Part shown: positions 16,954 through 22,422 of the stretch, piece after piece
How the letters are laid out: every line of letters begins with the position of its first letter
How positions within the stretch are numbered: the first letter of the stretch is position 1
Source of the DNA: Sphingobacteriales bacterium
Lineage (GTDB): Bacteria > Bacteroidota > Bacteroidia > Chitinophagales > Chitinophagaceae
Assembly (NCBI GenBank): GCA_027484425.1
Contig: JAIXSZ010000043.1
Span: forward strand, 1-64,000
Direction of reading: 5' to 3'
DNA length: 64,000 bases
Notes under the pieces: generated by a model
What the model saw: the letters and a program-made list of their open reading frames with translations, nothing else
What the model was told of the DNA's origin: nothing
The model's database searches: none
Program-made: the position numbers and the translations under genes

Positions 16954-16963
16954 ATTTTTTTTG

Positions 16964-17035
16964 GTCACCAGCCGTAGCACTACTATCATCGTCCCTTGCG
17001 TCGCAGCTCTTGTACGTTCAGGGCAGGGAGGGGCT
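16964..17035 (+). repeat. 72-bp direct repeat, copy 1, upstream of the RelBE-like pair
   Basis: This segment begins 10 bp after the methyltransferase stop and is closely matched by 17649-17721. Both copies share CACTACTATCATCGTCCC, then TTGCGTCGCA, then CTCTTGTACGTTCAGGGCAG. They bracket only the toxin-antitoxin pair, which suggests insertion of that module or duplication of its edge. Confidence 0.85.
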
Positions 17036-17058
17036 TACACAATAACTACAAAAACATG

Positions 17059-17066
17059 TAAATTTG
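17059..17066 (+). promoter_or_regulatory. TAnnTTTG promoter element of the toxin-antitoxin pair
   Basis: TAAATTTG lies 17 bp before the ATG at 17084. It supports that start over a longer frame reaching back to 16961, which would run through the direct repeat. Confidence 0.5.
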
Positions 17067-17083
17067 GAAACAAATACTGCTAC

Positions 17084-17314
17084 ATGACTGCTACCGAACT
17101 ATTACGCAACTCTATCAAAAAGCAAATAGATATTGCCGACGAAAAGTCATTAAAAATCATTCAGGCAGTACTCAGCATCAACGAAGAAACCGACTGGTGG
17201 GATGAACTATCACCTAACGCAAAAGCATCATTAGAACAAGGATTAAAAGATGCAAAAGAAGGTAAGTTAACACCGCATGCCGATGTTATGAAAAAGTACA
17301 AAAAATGGCTGTAG
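17084..17314 (+). CDS. Antitoxin-like protein of a RelBE/ParDE-type pair
   Basis: The 76-residue protein is small, charged and mostly helical. It starts MTATELLRNSIKKQI and ends KYKKWL, with SPNAKASLEQGLKDAKEGK in the middle, a pattern common in addiction-module antitoxins paired with ParE-like toxins. It overlaps the toxin gene by 10 bp, so the two are probably translationally coupled. The start at 17084 is chosen because the TAAATTTG element sits just upstream and the upstream extension falls in repeated DNA. It is expected to bind and neutralise the toxin and repress the shared promoter; this is inferred from family and position. Confidence 0.7.
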   Translation: MTATELLRNSIKKQIDIADEKSLKIIQAVLSINEETDWWDELSPNAKASLEQGLKDAKEGKLTPHADVMKKYKKWL

Positions 17315-17607
17315 TAGTGTATTGGTCACATCAGGCCACTGAAACATTTAATGACAATATCTTGTACCTGAAACAATCTTGGACAGACCGAGAGATAAAA
17401 AAGTTCATTCTAAGAACTGAAATTGTGATACTGAACATAGAGCAAAACCCCACACTGTACACCTATTCTGCAAAAAGCAAAAGAATAAGAAAGGCTACAA
17501 TCAACAATCAAATTACTTTATTCTACCGTTACAACGCTACCCAAAAATCCGTTGTGCTTTTATCATTTTGGAACAATTATAGAGACCAAAACAAACTATT
17601 GTTGTAA
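17305..17607 (+). CDS. RelE/ParE-family toxin
   Basis: The 100-residue protein has the RelE/ParE fold pattern: an early helix (VVYWSHQATETFNDNILYLKQSWTD), a middle Ile-rich strand, and the late KRIRKATINNQITLFYRYN strand pair followed by VVLLSFWNNYRDQ. The basic Lys/Arg residues of the late strands are the usual active or binding surface. Toxins of this type either cut ribosome-bound mRNA (RelE) or poison gyrase (ParE); which one cannot be told from sequence alone. It overlaps its antitoxin gene and the pair is enclosed by 72-bp direct repeats. Confidence 0.75.
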   Translation: MAVVVYWSHQATETFNDNILYLKQSWTDREIKKFILRTEIVILNIEQNPTLYTYSAKSKRIRKATINNQITLFYRYNATQKSVVLLSFWNNYRDQNKLLL

Positions 17608-17648
17608 GAATATGCTCCTATTCATACCCTACAACTATTATTCTCCCT

Positions 17649-17721
17649 GTCACCAGCCACACCACTACTATCATCGTCCCTTGCGTCGCATCTCTTGTAC
17701 GTTCAGGGCAGTGATGGGGCT
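17649..17721 (+). repeat. 72-bp direct repeat, copy 2, downstream of the RelBE-like pair
   Basis: Near-copy of 16964-17035 (73 bp, a handful of differences), starting 41 bp after the toxin stop. It lies 30 bp before the first tRNA-tail-like boundary sequence. Confidence 0.85.
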
Positions 17722-17750
17722 GGCATTGTACATGATGCAATAATTATTAT

Positions 17751-17835
17751 GGTTCGAATCCCTTACAGCCCGCAAAAATGTAAAACCCGTGCTTAGCGCG
17801 GGTTTTGTGGTTCGAATTGTCCCTTTGGCTTATTT
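17751..17835 (+). repeat. Boundary repeat site 1: tRNA 3'-end remnant plus hairpin
   Basis: GGTTCGAATCCCTTACAGCC followed by CGCA looks like the T-loop to acceptor end of a tRNA, but no matching 5' half lies upstream. A hairpin AAAACCCGTGC-TTA-GCGCGGGTTTT (17782-17806) follows, then GGTTCGAATTGTCCC and TTTGGCTTA. The same parts recur at 18.5 kb and 20.3 kb. It resembles an attachment-site remnant. Confidence 0.6.
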
Positions 17836-17904
17836 TTTTGCCGATACATGAAAATATTCTCCGTTAAGGGAAATTGTCTACTTTAGATAGAAATTCAAGA
17901 TATA

Positions 17905-18477
17905 ATGGCACACAATATCGGAGAAGAAATTGCAGGGCAATATTTAAAAATTTGCAGAAACTGCGATTTTGTTGAGTACAACCTCTATACAACAGACGTT
18001 CAGGGGGAAATTGATGTAGTGGGAATTGATACAAAAAATAGGAAAGTTTACGTTTGCGAGGTTGCAGTTCATTTAGGTGGGCTCCAATATAATAAAAATG
18101 GTAAGCCGGACAACTATGATAGGTTCATAAAGAAATTTGAAAAGGATATCGCCTACGCTAACAATAGATTTGACAGTACTTACGAAAAAACGTACATGTT
18201 ATGGTCGCCGGTTGTCAGAAACTCCAAAGAAGGCTCCAAGTACAATCAACTTGTGGATGTTGAACGTGTAAAACAGGACTTGAAATCCAAACATAACATT
18301 GAACTACAGTTAATCATCAACAAAACGTTTTTAGACTGCTTAGACGAGTTAAGATTATATGTTGGGGGGCAGACGGAAGAAATGAAGAGCCCGATTTTAA
18401 GATTTATGCAAATCGAATATCGATTGGGTATCCATGTTACTCGCGAACTCTCGAAAACGACCAAGAAAGGCAATTAA
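17905..18477 (+). CDS. Orphan protein with a PD-(D/E)XK-like core (possible nuclease)
   Basis: The 190-residue protein is not a named family I can assign. Residues 5-60 (GEEIAGQYLK, QGEIDVVGID, VYVCEVAVH) resemble the core of restriction-like endonucleases, where GEID is followed by a strand ending E-x-K. Here the lysine position reads Ala (CEVAVH), so activity is uncertain unless the residue has migrated. The middle and C-terminus are charged and helical. It is the only plus-strand gene among the repeat-bounded units at 17.75-21.2 kb, is visibly A+T-richer than the fadD region, and has no operon partner. A defence or DNA-processing role is a guess. Confidence 0.55.
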   Translation: MAHNIGEEIAGQYLKICRNCDFVEYNLYTTDVQGEIDVVGIDTKNRKVYVCEVAVHLGGLQYNKNGKPDNYDRFIKKFEKDIAYANNRFDSTYEKTYMLWSPVVRNSKEGSKYNQLVDVERVKQDLKSKHNIELQLIINKTFLDCLDELRLYVGGQTEEMKSPILRFMQIEYRLGIHVTRELSKTTKKGN

Positions 18478-18490
18478 AGTCCCTTTAGAA

Positions 18491-18607
18491 TTCAACTATC
18501 GCCTTCAAATCCTCTACAAAAAAGTTCGAAAGTTGTCCCTTACAGCCCGCAGAAAATTGAAACACGCGCCATGCGCGGGTTTTGTCGTTCGAAATGTCCC
18601 CTTTTCT
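18491..18607 (+). repeat. Boundary repeat site 2
   Basis: In order: TCAAATCCTCTACAAAAAAG, TTCGAAAGTTGTCCC, TTACAGCCCGCAG, a GC hairpin (18560-18582, one mismatch), then GTCGTTCGAAATGTCCC. It matches site 4 along most of its length and site 3 over the first 45 bp. On the minus strand the left half reads SNFFVEDLKAIVEF followed by a stop. Confidence 0.7.
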
Positions 18608-18674
18608 TGATTTCATTACGGACCAAGTTGAAAAGTTGGGGGAAGAAAAATAATTACGCCATTATAGCTTAAAA

Positions 18675-19166
18675 TCACTGATTATTAAAAATTGCCAGTA
18701 TATCTGTTGTAATGTCTACCAAGTCCCCTTTATTTATTTTACATTTATCTTTGTGTGCCTTTTTCGGTGACCTAGATATTACCGCACTAATATTTATTTG
18801 TTGCAGCAGTTTATATTTTACATATATGGAGTCTTTCTGTGATAAAACTTCTACAACGATAACCCTACTATTTTCTTTCTTTAGAAATTCTTTATGAACA
18901 TCCCAATTTGATGCTTTGCCGTTTACTGCTTTCAATTGGACAGGATAAAACCTGCCTTCGTATTCAAGCAAAACATCAAATCCAAATGCGTCAAAGTCGG
19001 ACCTTGAGATACCTATTTTTTTATGCTGATTTGCAGTGGCTACAATCAAATCACGTAGAAAAGTATACTCGGCAAATTTCTCTTGACTTTTGGCATTGCC
19101 ACTCCCTTTGAAAAATTCAATAACTGGATGTTCCCTCATAGGAACGACTTGAAGATCTTCTTTCAT
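18675..19166 (-). CDS. Orphan protein with PD-(D/E)XK-like motif
   Basis: The 163-residue protein contains SDFDAFGFDVLLEYEGRFYP followed by VQLKAV. That is an Asp then a strand ending Q-x-K, as in the core of some restriction-like nucleases and Holliday-junction or viral-type nucleases. An early helix with KFAEYTFLRDLIVATANQ fits the usual first helix. The C-terminus is basic and ends in a short hydrophobic stretch. No partner methylase or helicase is adjacent. It is the sole gene of its repeat-bounded unit. The fold assignment is tentative and the function unknown. Confidence 0.5.
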   Translation of the reverse strand: MKEDLQVVPMREHPVIEFFKGSGNAKSQEKFAEYTFLRDLIVATANQHKKIGISRSDFDAFGFDVLLEYEGRFYPVQLKAVNGKASNWDVHKEFLKKENSRVIVVEVLSQKDSIYVKYKLLQQINISAVISRSPKKAHKDKCKINKGDLVDITTDILAIFNNQ

Positions 19167-19319
19167 ATTTTATCGCCAATTTTTGTCTGCAATATACACA
19201 TTATTATTTAAATATATTTTGTGTACAATGATAAAGGAACTACTAATAGTTCTGTACCGGTAATAAATGGTACTTTCCAAATTAGATAGTAAGTTAATCC
19301 TCATTTTAAGGACTCAAAA

Positions 19320-19372
19320 ATCAACAATCGCCCTCAAATCCTCCACAAAATAGTTCGAAATGTCCCATTAGG
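19320..19372 (+). repeat. Boundary repeat site 3 (left half only)
   Basis: CCCTCAAATCCTCCACAAAA, then TAGTTCGAAATGTCCCATTA. It matches the left half of sites 2 and 4 but lacks the tRNA tail and hairpin. The minus strand reads SNYFVEDLRAIVDF then a stop; most differences from site 2 are conservative at protein level. Confidence 0.65.
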
Positions 19373-19458
19373 CATTACAAGAAGAAAACACTTGAGCCAA
19401 CGAGGATATAGCCCAATATCATCAACTAAACTACTTTAGCGAAAAAAGCCTAAACTGG

Positions 19459-20088
19459 TCATGCTAATTGTATTAAATACTTTTTTCGTGCAGTCCATGC
19501 CACATTAAACTTTGTGATTCCATCAGCCCAAGAAGTAGCGGTTGGCTTATGTTTTATCCGATTGAGAAATTTTCTTCCATCCTGTAGTATGTTTCTATCA
19601 GCTTCAGGGATATTCCTATAAACACACAATTCGTCTATCACATCAACCAAATCTTTTTTCTCCCAGGGAATGTTTTTTGAAGTTCGTATGTTGTTATTGT
19701 GATTTCGTAAGGAAATTTCAAAAGCTGCACATTTCATAAAAATTGGGTCAGGAAGATCGGCATCCGTAATACTGCCATACTCTGCAATGCAGGTCTTTAA
19801 GAACTTTGATATTGAAGGTTCTGCCCTAAGCATCATTACAAAATCGCAGTCACCAGCTCGCTGAGAAAAATTGTCCGTTTTTATTACACCACGGCTCCAT
19901 TGCACCATAAATGGCTCTGGTTCCTTAATGTAATCAAGGAACATATCATAATCACCGTGCTTAATAGCGTTAAACTCATCTTTAAATTTATTTATTCGCT
20001 TGCCTGATTTTATAACTTTCAGCATATAGCCTACAGCATAAGAAATAGGTAGTTTATGGTCTTCGTCTTTTGTAGGCATTGTACTCAT
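19459..20088 (-). CDS. Hypothetical orphan protein
   Basis: The 209-residue soluble protein is unrecognised. It is charged, with a helical N-terminal half (YAVGYMLKVIKSGKRINKF) and a second half with DLVDVIDELCVYRNIPEADR. No signal peptide, membrane segment or catalytic motif stands out. It fills one unit of the repeat-bounded array alone, in antisense to the site orientation. It may be an effector of an unrecognised accessory function, but nothing in the sequence shows this. M4 is an alternative start. Confidence 0.55.
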   Translation of the reverse strand: MSTMPTKDEDHKLPISYAVGYMLKVIKSGKRINKFKDEFNAIKHGDYDMFLDYIKEPEPFMVQWSRGVIKTDNFSQRAGDCDFVMMLRAEPSISKFLKTCIAEYGSITDADLPDPIFMKCAAFEISLRNHNNNIRTSKNIPWEKKDLVDVIDELCVYRNIPEADRNILQDGRKFLNRIKHKPTATSWADGITKFNVAWTARKKYLIQLA

Positions 20089-20455
20089 TTCTCAAAATTA
20101 CTGGGTATATCAATATCGCACTACTGTTTTATAGTATACTGTCGGCAGTTGTAAAATAATCTGTCACGAGTCCTTCGAAATAACCGAATGGTCGTTGCTT
20201 TACAAAATGCCAAAGTGTTCGCCTCCGAAACACTAGCTGAGCATCTTTTCCTCACAATCTAAAAATTCGCTATGTTCATCAAATCCTCAACAAAAAAGTT
20301 CGAAAGTTGTCCCACACAGCCCGCAGCTAAATGAAATAAGTGCTTTTCATAGTTTTTTGTCGTTCGAAAAGTCTTCCCCCATTTGGCTTAGGTGTTTAAT
20401 AAACTGAGCACCAGTAATATCTACAAGGTGGATAACAATAGCCAGGCGTATTAAA
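20089..20455. other. Intergenic region holding boundary site 4
   Basis: About 370 bp without a credible gene. The only structured element is boundary repeat site 4 (20268-20398). The remaining 180 bp to the left is unremarkable A+T-rich sequence. Confidence 0.6.
20268..20398 (+). repeat. Boundary repeat site 4
   Basis: ATCAAATCCTCAACAAAAAA, then GTTCGAAAGTTGTCCC, ACACAGCCCGCAG, a diverged middle, TTTTTTGTCGTTCGAAAAG, and CCCCCATTTGGCTTAGGTGT. It matches site 2 over both halves. The minus strand reads SNFFVEDLMNIANF then a stop. The tail CCCCCATTTGGC(T/A)TAGGTGT recurs at 21210. Confidence 0.7.
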
Positions 20456-21154
20456 TCACTGCACAGCAGCTGCTTGTTTTTTACTCATATTGTCAATGGT
20501 ATAGCTGACGAACACCCGGAGGTTAAAGCCACCCCATTCGAACGACTTCTTTTGTTCATGAATAGTAGCAACTATGCTACCAACAAAAAGACCTGAAACT
20601 TCCATTCCCGTATTTATCCTGTTCCACTTAGCAGATATGCCTGTAAAGGGTTGCAGACCTGAGTAAAATATATTGGCTTGTATTTCGCTTCTTTGTGATG
20701 AATAATAGAACAAACTACCAGTGTTGACTGACCGACCTGCGATAAGATCGAAGAAGGCAAGAGAATCTCTTTTGCTCGTTTTGAAACCGACATTTACATC
20801 GGTACCATAATACCAGTTTATACGTTTGGATAGTTTTTTATTCCATTGAATGCCTGTGCTTACGATGGGCATATTTGTACTAATATACCACGAATTATAT
20901 ACACTGAAAGATGTGTCTTTACCATAATAGTGTGCTTCTTCCCAGGAACCTATTCTAATTTTTGCAACAGATGCTGAAAAGCGATAGGCTTTTTTTGTGT
21001 CTGGTTGGTATTTGTATTGTATACCTATCCGCCTGCCATGAGCTACATCTGTTGGTGAAAAAATTGGTTCAGCAATCACCCCTATTTCATGGGTTTGTTG
21101 GGCATACAAGGGTACACAATATAACAAAGCAACAATAGCTATTAGCATCTTCAT
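20456..21154 (-). CDS. Hypothetical secreted, possibly outer-membrane protein
   Basis: The 232-residue product starts with a clear signal peptide (MKMLIAIVALLYCVPLYAQ). The rest alternates polar and aromatic residues in strand-like runs (IGIQYKYQPDTKKAYRFSAS, INWYYGTDVNVGF), the look of a small outer-membrane beta-barrel or conjugal-TraO-like protein, though no family is certain. It lies between boundary site 4 and a partial copy of its tail at 21210, so it may belong to the same array. No partner gene overlaps it. Confidence 0.6.
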   Translation of the reverse strand: MKMLIAIVALLYCVPLYAQQTHEIGVIAEPIFSPTDVAHGRRIGIQYKYQPDTKKAYRFSASVAKIRIGSWEEAHYYGKDTSFSVYNSWYISTNMPIVSTGIQWNKKLSKRINWYYGTDVNVGFKTSKRDSLAFFDLIAGRSVNTGSLFYYSSQRSEIQANIFYSGLQPFTGISAKWNRINTGMEVSGLFVGSIVATIHEQKKSFEWGGFNLRVFVSYTIDNMSKKQAAAVQ

Positions 21155-21209
21155 AGATAGCTAAACGTAAGAACTGAATTATTATTATTTGTTTTGTAAT
21201 GTTTTTGTG

Positions 21210-21232
21210 CCCCCCATTTGGCATAGGTGTTA
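21210..21232 (+). repeat. Partial boundary repeat (site 5)
   Basis: The sequence matches the right-hand tail of site 4 (20376-20398) with very few changes (CCCCCATTTGGC, then TAGGTGT). It marks the far side of the 20456-21154 gene unit. Confidence 0.5.
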
Positions 21233-21324
21233 GCTACATTGGCGTCAGTATATACATTTTACTAGTGCTTTTCCAGCGAAAAAACCATGCTCACAATTCA
21301 ACTCCCATATTCCCGCCTAATCAA

Positions 21325-22422
21325 TCACCCCCCCCCCAACACATAATGAGTGCTCCTGCCTCCTTGGTTGGCTTTCACCAATATGCCTTTATTCACTAGT
21401 TCTGTTATATCTCTCAGGGCAGTATCTTGCGACGATTTGGTCATTTTCGCCCACTTGCTAGTAGTCAGGTTGCCATCAAAGTTATCTAGTAGATTATTCA
21501 TCATTTTACGTTGGCGGTCATTACTCACTTGCCCACCATTTTTCACCCAAAACTGATGTTTACGTATCACCTTGTCTATTACTGTGCTCGACGATTCCAG
21601 CGCCTTTTTCACACAGCTTAAGAACCATAGCATCCAATCAGTTATATCCAAATCTCCTTTTTGGGTTTGCTCCAGTATATGGTAGTAGTTCTTTTTGTCG
21701 TTATTTATTTGTCCACTCACGCTATAGAAACGTTGGTTCACCCCATCGGCTATAGATAATTGCATATCCATTATCGCTCTTGCTATTCGTCCGTTGCCAT
21801 CATCAAATGGGTGTATGGTCACAAACCACAAGTGCGCTATACCTGCTTTTAGTATTGAGTTTATCTCTGTAGTAGTGTTAAACCATTCTATAAATGATTG
21901 CATTTCCTGTGCTAGGAGTGCAGCATCAGGAGCCTCATAGTGTACTGTTTCTCTGCCCATACCACCCGATACTACCTGCATAGCCCCGCTACGCCATCTG
22001 CCTGTTTCTATAGTATACAAGCCACTTCTACCAGTAGGAAACAATGCTGCATGCCACCCGTACAGTCTTTCATCGCTCAGCGTTTTGTTGGTGGTCTGTG
22101 TAGCATCTATCATCATAGCCACTACACCGTCTATGTGTCTATCAGTGTGTTGTACACCAGAATGTTCTAAACCCAGTTTTGTGGCTATAGAAGATCTTAC
22201 CAACTCTGGATTTAATACCTCACCTTCTATTTCACTTGTCTGCACTACATCGAATATCAGAGTTTCCAGATTGGCTTCACCCTTCAGGTCGAAACCCAAT
22301 AACGCTACTTTGCCCATAAGCCTACCCTGCAGATAACTCACCTCTATCAGTTTAGTTGTTACTTGCTGCTTATCCCACCTGAATTTAGGCCATTTTTTCA
22401 GCTGGTGAATATATACCGCCAT
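21325..22422 (-). CDS. Fic-domain AMP-transferase with inhibitory motif and winged-helix tail
   Basis: The 365-residue protein has a DUF4172-like N-terminus, the catalytic Fic loop HPFDDGNGRIARA beginning at residue 204 (perfect HxFx(D/E)GNGRxxR), and a C-terminal winged-helix-like segment (TSKWAKMTKSSQDTALRDIT). The N-terminus contains TSEIEG, which fits the (S/T)xxxE(G/N) inhibitory helix of class II Fic proteins, so AMP transfer is probably self-restrained. The target is unknown. Its upstream region carries a strong palindrome that the winged helix could bind. The last codons lie in a run of ten G (plus-strand C at 21328-21337) just before the stop, which could slip. Confidence 0.9.
   Translation of the reverse strand: MAVYIHQLKKWPKFRWDKQQVTTKLIEVSYLQGRLMGKVALLGFDLKGEANLETLIFDVVQTSEIEGEVLNPELVRSSIATKLGLEHSGVQHTDRHIDGVVAMMIDATQTTNKTLSDERLYGWHAALFPTGRSGLYTIETGRWRSGAMQVVSGGMGRETVHYEAPDAALLAQEMQSFIEWFNTTTEINSILKAGIAHLWFVTIHPFDDGNGRIARAIMDMQLSIADGVNQRFYSVSGQINNDKKNYYHILEQTQKGDLDITDWMLWFLSCVKKALESSSTVIDKVIRKHQFWVKNGGQVSNDRQRKMMNNLLDNFDGNLTTSKWAKMTKSSQDTALRDITELVNKGILVKANQGGRSTHYVLGGG

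Follow-up and report, generated by a model that had tools for sequence, protein, structure and literature searches.

The locus considered here lies between positions 17,640 and 21,235 of a 64,000-nucleotide stretch of a Sphingobacteriales genome (contig JAIXSZ010000043.1, positions 1 to 64,000), which at its full length is referred to as the window. Single genes alternate there with a recurring, tRNA-tail-like boundary, and the question raised is what this boundary is and what brought the genes together. Read by its codons on the reverse strand, the left half of the boundary, which forms the right end (RE) of the preceding unit, encodes the C-terminal tail of a large serine recombinase (LSR). 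The array is most probably a stack of small non-autonomous cassettes derived from LSR integrative elements of Bacteroidota, and the cassettes are probably mobile.

The coding nature of the RE was assessed as follows: 51 REs, selected by a DNA motif with at most five mismatches (a choice that somewhat lowers the number of stops in all frames), were read in six frames. One reverse frame was free of stops over 714 codons (fourteen codons each), and its replacements were conservative, the excess being 1.60 against a null of 0.27±0.37 (0 of 200 null values as high); the other five frames gave z values from −1.7 to 0.2 and 10–65 stops. Coding on the forward strand was ruled out by the same test. The consensus of the tail is x-G-Q-L-S-N-[FY]-F-V-E-D-L-[KR]-A-I-x-x-[FY]-stop, and variants of it (GGNMSNFFVEDLERF and NPLGLFSNLFVEDLKKL) accompany other tRNA tails. 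At E ≤ 1 the tail was detected in 23 of the 35 genomes of the genus, in frames of up to 114 amino acids (aa). Across the phylum, a profile of 28 tails gave matches at E ≤ 0.01 in 12 of 171 genera and 23 of 395 genomes; among the copies listed, one lay in a frame of 556 aa and all others in frames under 65 aa. This single long frame, in genome G256, which shares its genus label with Flavobacterium limi, belongs to an LSR (E 3.3e-58 to P0001) that is not split and has the C-terminus ...SVALTGQFSNHFINDLKILG followed by a stop codon, and it is the strongest single fact of the analysis. The DNA pattern of the tail is also present in F. limi, which apparently has an LSR relative as well, Mucilaginibacter sp. 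OK268 and Sabulibacter ruber. No match to the tail peptide was obtained among phages and plasmids, nor in NCBIfam, Pfam or PDB. A viral origin was rejected: the exact pattern gave no match, and a looser pattern gave two that were deemed chance (16-aa frames, no tRNA).

Further LSRs were recognised by their similarity to the recombinase of the element at L192, in which PF00239, PF07508 and PF13408 (the last below the cut-off) were found. Relatives occur in 29 of the 35 genus genomes, with seven matches in the genome of the window itself, and in 42 of the 395 phylum genomes. They are found in 16 of the 23 genomes with a tail and in 26 of the 372 others (p 2e-12, uncorrected for kinship). Loci in which the match reaches the C-terminal part numbered 65 (one gene being counted twice, as L209 and L242), and in 50 of these the LSR gene runs antisense through the 3' end of a tRNA gene (45 within 130 bases by script and five beyond, taken from the same list), so that integration would exchange the tail for tRNA-antisense codons. 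The tRNAs concerned are those for 12 amino acids. In a control with tyrosine integrases none of the loci examined (24 of 30) overlapped a tRNA gene. An element of about 32 kb in genome G006, lying between tRNA-Ala and its right end, may serve as an illustration: the 3' end of its 508-aa LSR gene crosses the antisense strand of a second tRNA-Ala tail, and a small GIY-YIG gene is placed between that tail and the tRNA gene. On the single contig of genome G067 (C1; L255, L265, L269, L272 and L274–L278) nine LSR matches were seen, of which seven overlie tRNA genes of several kinds.

LSR genes and REs were then considered as pairs. Thirteen pairs, each on one contig, were picked by hand from the match lists (an LSR with no tail on its own contig did not enter the count); all are in matching orientation, three come from the window's own genome, and the elements in the examined pairs span about 5–42 kb. 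On own-genome contig C73, for example, the LSR gene lies over tRNA-Leu with the matching tail 26.8 kb away, and similar pairs are present on C11 and C28. When joined at the tRNA end, the tail was in frame with the LSR in 13 of 13 cases, against one in three expected by chance, the junctions not being independent trials because the LSRs are related. Twelve of these were obtained by the automatic rule; in the thirteenth (G015:C31) the rule chose a spurious core, and the junction at the tRNA end reads in frame as ...LSLSAGCKGQLSNFIMEDMKAIVDFN and a stop. Stretches of 4–21 nucleotides (nt) shared at the tRNA end in the 12 pairs correspond to a short core common to the left and right attachment sites (attL/attR). 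A natural contiguous copy of LSR end and tail, of chromosomal position, is found at L063 (...MLMAQPANNAGAKVKEQTNALMFSLSAGCKGQLSNYFIEDMRAI) and resembles the computed junctions of G018:C208 and G015:C31. Three further LSR–RE pairs from other genera (G067, G425 and G287) were observed in addition to the 13 joined. On this sequence evidence, the attachment (att) site of the LSR elements appears to lie within the recombinase gene, which integration would split.

The other half of the boundary, the left end (LE) of the following cassette, also codes for recombinase. GTTCGAAATGTCCC is the reverse complement of GGGACATTTCGAAC, which occurs exactly inside the LSR gene of own-genome contig C73, where it codes for G-T-F-R-T, and 18 of 22 cassette LEs code for T-[FLIV]-R-T or something close to it, codons that the pattern used for picking LEs itself favours. 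Between the LE codons and the tRNA tail the cassettes carry a terminator like the one behind a tRNA-Ser gene of the same genome. Since both halves of the site code for pieces of an LSR, each window cassette is read as an LSR attachment site with one cargo gene. This coding, an LSR gene that spans the att site and complete elements elsewhere in the genome lie beyond what the preliminary description of the locus had in view.

The following course of events is proposed. Complete elements sit at tRNA 3' ends, and their LSR gene points outward and crosses the attachment site. When the element is circular, the reading frame would pass over the attachment site of the circle (attP) and end in G-Q-L-S-N-x-F-V-E-D-L-..., and a crossover at the tRNA 3' end would part the body of the gene from this tail, left behind at the far end as the RE. 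The body would then read into the tRNA antisense strand and end in codons such as G-I-E-P-x-T. A window cassette retains only the attachment region, namely the LE with its G-T-F-R-T codons, the tRNA tail with terminator and the RE with the tail codons, one cargo gene standing where the recombinase body would be. Integration and excision of cassettes would most likely be carried out by LSRs coded elsewhere in the cell, and because the LE would restore a nearly empty target (tRNA end and terminator), cassettes could pile up and arrays grow. The preliminary description had suggested repeated capture of cargo at a tRNA-derived site or a cassette system moved in trans: the tail does match tRNA 3' ends used by the elements, and the cassettes hold no recombinase; movement in trans is what the above scheme would predict. 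A regulatory extension is put forward tentatively, as possible yet falling somewhat short of an even chance: Bacteroidota serine integrases might sense their own integration state by the C-terminus, the SNxFVEDL tail being present only in the circle and swapped for tRNA-antisense codons on integration as an integration/excision switch. Right ends would then be interchangeable and tails could be lent between elements, an exchange that might maintain selection on the tail codons also where a unit carries nothing but cargo, and might give a shared, trans-mobilised pool that includes defence genes.

The boundary and the cassettes were also followed through other genomes. Site 2 of the window (132 bases), self aside, matched seven places in its own genome: window site 4 (E 2.2e-18), window site 1 (E 3.2e-13) and five weaker ones, one of these (C39) amounting to no more than the terminator that follows a tRNA-Ser gene. 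At E ≤ 0.001 it was matched in 26 of the 35 genus genomes, own genome counted; occurrence at this locus alone, which the preliminary description had named as evidence against a mobile array, is thereby set aside. Copies of the site lie directly behind intact tRNA genes at L063 (tRNA-Ser) and L133 (tRNA-Leu). At L133 the cassette's right end repeats the tRNA end and the next bases (CCGCACTCAAAT), and at L161, in the distant genome G427, about 47 bases from the tRNA-Lys end onward are repeated at the right end (judged by eye); the right-end tail therefore matches the tRNA 3' end, and differing tails pair with differing tRNAs. Two elements follow each other behind tRNA-Lys at L161, the second with a gene for an 858-aa protein like a cation-transporting P-type ATPase.

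Part of the window was compared with 40 fetched loci, and homologous stretches were found to be shared by loci with otherwise unrelated surroundings. Eight homologous pairs were aligned at their edges. Both edges fell at sites in three of the eight, at differing loci and with 91–95% identity: window 19353–20324 and G031 (95%), G015 and G026 (91%), and the IetA/IetS cassettes of G015 and the window's own genome (95%). The homology between window and G031 begins at GTTCGAAATGTCCC and stops after CAGCCCGC; that of the IetA/IetS pair extends from the tRNA-type terminator to the TTCGA of the right end. The edges of L059/L086 are close to sites on both sides, and those of L049/L064 on the right side only. 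Genomes G027 and G017 have flanks in common (about 80%) with different cassettes inside. The flanking gene occurs in 32 genomes, of which 20 were compared at the window locus itself (some stopping early at contig ends). In G034, the nearest relative, the flanking genes are accompanied by gene 4 but not by cassettes 1–3, so the array is not fixed among relatives, a further outcome in keeping with the preliminary proposal. None of the four window cargo genes was found at the other 19 fetched loci, some of which are incomplete at contig ends.

Several observations weigh against the derivation of the cassettes from LSR elements as set out above. Fifteen of the 65 LSR loci lack overlap with a called tRNA gene (some reach contig ends), seven of the 23 tail genomes lack an LSR at the cut-off, and some LSR copies have in-frame stops. 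A looser first joining rule gave a shared core in nine of the 13 pairs, some of them spurious, with the tail in frame in six of those nine, and a second rule printed nine in frame; the shortfalls of the latter comprise G015:C31, mislabelled by the pattern, G006, where no tRNA was called at the tail, and misplaced tRNA ends in G015:C11 and G011:C19. At the LEs, where the picking pattern itself favours the codons in question, the R codon is a stop in three of 22 and Q in one. The distance from G-T-F-R-T to the tRNA tail is about 17 codons in cassettes and about 30–36 in LSR genes (by eye), and an LSR with the exact left end of the window type was not found among the LSR genes seen. Three of the eight aligned cassette pairs end away from sites on both sides, and many of the genomes compared are draft assemblies. 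No tRNA gene was called in the whole window, so that the array now adjoins none, and circle, excision and integration were not observed here. Two LSR copies at tRNA-Ser genes, L083 (G018:C208) and L240 (G015:C11), contain in-frame TAG codons and are probably decayed.

Loss of the adjoining tRNA gene would also be expected if the cassettes were dead deletion products of LSR elements, moving only by homologous recombination or together with a neighbouring complete element. This reading, which is considered unlikely without being negligible, would further explain a contig without recombinase, the decay of at least one RE copy (L005) and the disappearance of tail and hairpin from site 3. It is opposed by the three pairs in which like cassettes (91–95% identity) occupy unrelated loci and end at the sites, by cassettes straight behind intact tRNA-Ser and tRNA-Leu genes (L063 and L133), by the constraint on tail codons in a set made up mostly of cassette REs and by differences in cassette presence among near relatives. 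That the tail peptide might be an independent short protein, linked to LSRs only by a common place at tRNA ends, is very improbable: its frames are indeed short nearly everywhere, but the families share no common start codon (by eye), and the frame is continuous with the LSR in all 13 junctions and in one unsplit gene.

Equally improbable is movement by a tyrosine-recombinase system (integron-like, Xer/pdif-like or ICE-like), the likeness to LSRs being incidental. According to a review on mycobacteriophages (PMC9262239), tRNA 3' ends are the usual targets of tyrosine integrases there, and a search of six genus genomes found such integrases in every one. However, 30 integrase loci, flanks of about 1.5 kb included, were without RE or LE, none of the 24 examined overlapped a tRNA gene, G015 has three PF00589 genes against 13 site matches, and the RE codes for an LSR tail. 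As candidate driver the tyrosine integrase was dropped after PF00589 had been searched in six and eight genomes and none belonged with the sites; in G350 one PF00589 gene is located outside a site, at a distance of about 6 kb. A retroelement model was ruled out by the mixed orientation of the cargo, and casposon-like and terminator-repeat readings, entertained in thought only, were abandoned once the unsplit LSR had been found.

SSV-type integrases of archaea target tRNA genes. In these suicidal enzymes the recombination site lies in the integrase gene, integration splits the gene, and related copies may act in trans; passages of the same source describe self-splitting integrases as confined to archaea (PMC8371274). 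The elements described here are alike in having the att site inside an integrase gene that would be split on integration; they differ from the SSV type, as portrayed in those passages, in that the SSV enzymes are tyrosine recombinases, whereas here serine recombinase domains were found in a bacterial enzyme whose loss is limited to about 20 C-terminal codons and of which there are many single-gene derivatives. The system would therefore work alike without being a member of that class. In the integration-dependent immunity of mycobacteriophage BPs and its kin, attP lies in a gene, a tRNA gene is the bacterial attachment site (attB), and integration alters the C-terminus of the protein and thereby the state (passages of PMC9262239). 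Gene-borne attP, tRNA target and altered C-terminus are common to both; there a repressor is altered and the integrase is a tyrosine enzyme, whereas here the gene over the site is that of the recombinase itself. Mycobacteriophages with serine integrases are said in the same passages not to use tRNA genes (PMC9262239). With the SSV type being archaeal tyrosine enzymes, the BPs type altering a repressor tail and mycobacteriophage serine integrases avoiding tRNA genes, the LSR version would be a new form of an established principle; no published description of this arrangement was found in a literature covered without most subscription papers, which is weak evidence of novelty.

Large serine integrases of the phiC31/Bxb1 type share the Resolvase, Recombinase and weak zinc-ribbon domains, a set found in one complete element (L192); here the gene also crosses tRNA 3' ends (12 amino acids) and overlaps the att site. 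Integron cassettes and the pdif modules of Acinetobacter are likewise small units without recombinase, for which movement in trans is established or assumed, by means of attC hairpins or Xer sites and tyrosine recombinases, where the present units have a split LSR 3' end. Instead of an IntI-type integrase and attC hairpins, the array's contig offered no PF00589 match, direct repeats and a coding site, no attC model having been run.

A bacterial serine counterpart of these systems (tail in 23, LSR relatives in 42 of 395 phylum genomes) would provide a testable switch, one enzyme with two natural tails. How direction is controlled matters centrally to work on serine integrases and to their application as genome-writing tools. 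The cassettes would be one route by which single accessory genes, including an Iet-type defence pair, are placed behind tRNA genes without an adjacent recombinase, and the conserved tail codons offer a simple search handle for such islands.

The features of the array are collated in Table 1. Positions of site parts were taken from a listing of exact matches and repeats from a direct-repeat search of the window, in which repeats D1–D4, D7, D8 and D11 take in the described sites, D4 being a separate repeat.

Table 1. Features of the cassette array, with positions in the window.
Feature	Position	Strand	Basis
Site 1, tRNA 3'-end-like segment GTTCGAATCCCTTACAGCCCGCA, left edge of the array; no tRNA gene called there	17752..17774	+	repeat search, exact positions
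LE of cassette 1, GTTCGAATTGTCCC; putative reverse-strand recombinase codons K-G-T-I-R-T	17810..17823	-	repeat search, codon reading
Cargo gene 1, 190 aa; no family match over cut-off	17905..18477	+	open reading frame (ORF) list, family searches
RE of cassette 1, codons KGQLSNFFVEDLKAIVEF, read as LSR C-terminal tail	18488..18541	-	codon analysis, tail search
tRNA-tail segment of site 2 (putative att core region)	18540..18551	+	exact positions
GC hairpin then T-run, terminator-like; resembles the one behind the own-genome tRNA-Ser gene	18562..18586	+	sequence, own-genome matches
LE of cassette 2, GTTCGAAATGTCCC, codons K-G-T-F-R-T	18587..18600	-	repeat search, codon reading
Cargo gene 2, 163 aa; no family match	18675..19166	-	ORF list, family searches
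Site 3, RE of cassette 2 (ISNYFVEDLRAIVDF, stop) joined at GTTCGAA to LE of cassette 3; without tail and hairpin	19317..19366	-	repeats, alignments
Cargo gene 3, 209 aa; cassette 95% identical in relative G031 (L051), same edges	19459..20088	-	locus alignment
Site 4, RE of cassette 3 (GQLSNFFVEDLMNIANF, stop) and tRNA tail ACAGCCCGC	20262..20324	-	alignments, exact positions
LE of cassette 4, GTTCGAAAAGTCTT; reverse-strand frame K-T-F-R-T	20362..20375	-	repeat search
21-nt direct repeat bracketing gene 4, left copy (second copy 21211–21231)	20376..20396	+	repeat search
Cargo gene 4, 232 aa; signal-peptide-like start (by eye)	20456..21154	-	ORF list

The preliminary description had all boundary parts recurring at 17751, 18491, 19320, 20268 and, partly, 21210. 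The repeated boundary is real, but its parts are unevenly distributed, and the complete set recurring in relatives is present at site 2 only. TCAAATCCTCnACAAAA was found at 18505, 19334 and 20279 and is absent at 17752; ACAGCCCGC occurs at 17765, 18542 and 20316, with no copy at 19320; the CCATTTGG tail is confined to 20376 and 21211. Sites 1 and 2 have a GC hairpin after the tail; at site 4 it looks degenerate (both by eye). At 19320 a right end is joined straight to a left end, and 21210 is merely the 21-nt repeat; no RE was found on the right side of gene 4 or of this repeat. GTTCGAA is present in the array as direct repeats at 17752, 17810, 18524, 18587, 19353, 20298 and 20362, so that seven of the 12 copies in the window (3.8 expected from base composition) fall inside these 2.6 kb. 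One gene per interval in mixed orientation was borne out by the gene list, and the reported absence of an integrase holds for the contig, on which neither PF00589 nor an LSR was matched. The end of cargo gene 4 is also present in G034, where the contig stops.

The nuclease-like character ascribed earlier to two of the cargo genes was not confirmed: the four window genes gave no PADLOC match and no Pfam match over the cut-off, and single-sequence structure models of cargo 1 and 2 (mean pLDDT 46 and 39) were too poor for use. The motif GEIDVVG...VYVCEV, seen by eye in cargo 1, is possibly PD-(D/E)xK-like and unconfirmed. Of the 96 genes nearest to REs, some of which may fall outside a cassette, 69 were put to Pfam and PADLOC. 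Among the families listed (25 of 82 for Pfam, 25 of 98 for PADLOC) the cargo is very mixed (Iet, PD-Lambda-2 and cyclase-type defence models, HigB toxin, ion pumps and oxidoreductases), and the Pfam families listed include one transposase family (IS1, two members) and no site-specific recombinase. The cassette system is not purely one of defence. The IetA/IetS anti-phage pair forms a cassette with a family-B right end at L077 (own-genome contig C38) and at L071; the latter, on which the family matches were made, sits in a row behind tRNA-Ala.

Two neighbouring features were noted. A 70-base direct repeat (91% identical; window 16964–17033 and 17649–17718), which has no relation to the cassette sites, flanks a small gene pair at 16961–17607 with a weak match to YhaV toxin; the pair and a similar repeat are also present in G034 (L167). 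On the other side, a Fic-domain protein with DUF4172 (window 21325–22422) adjoins the array.

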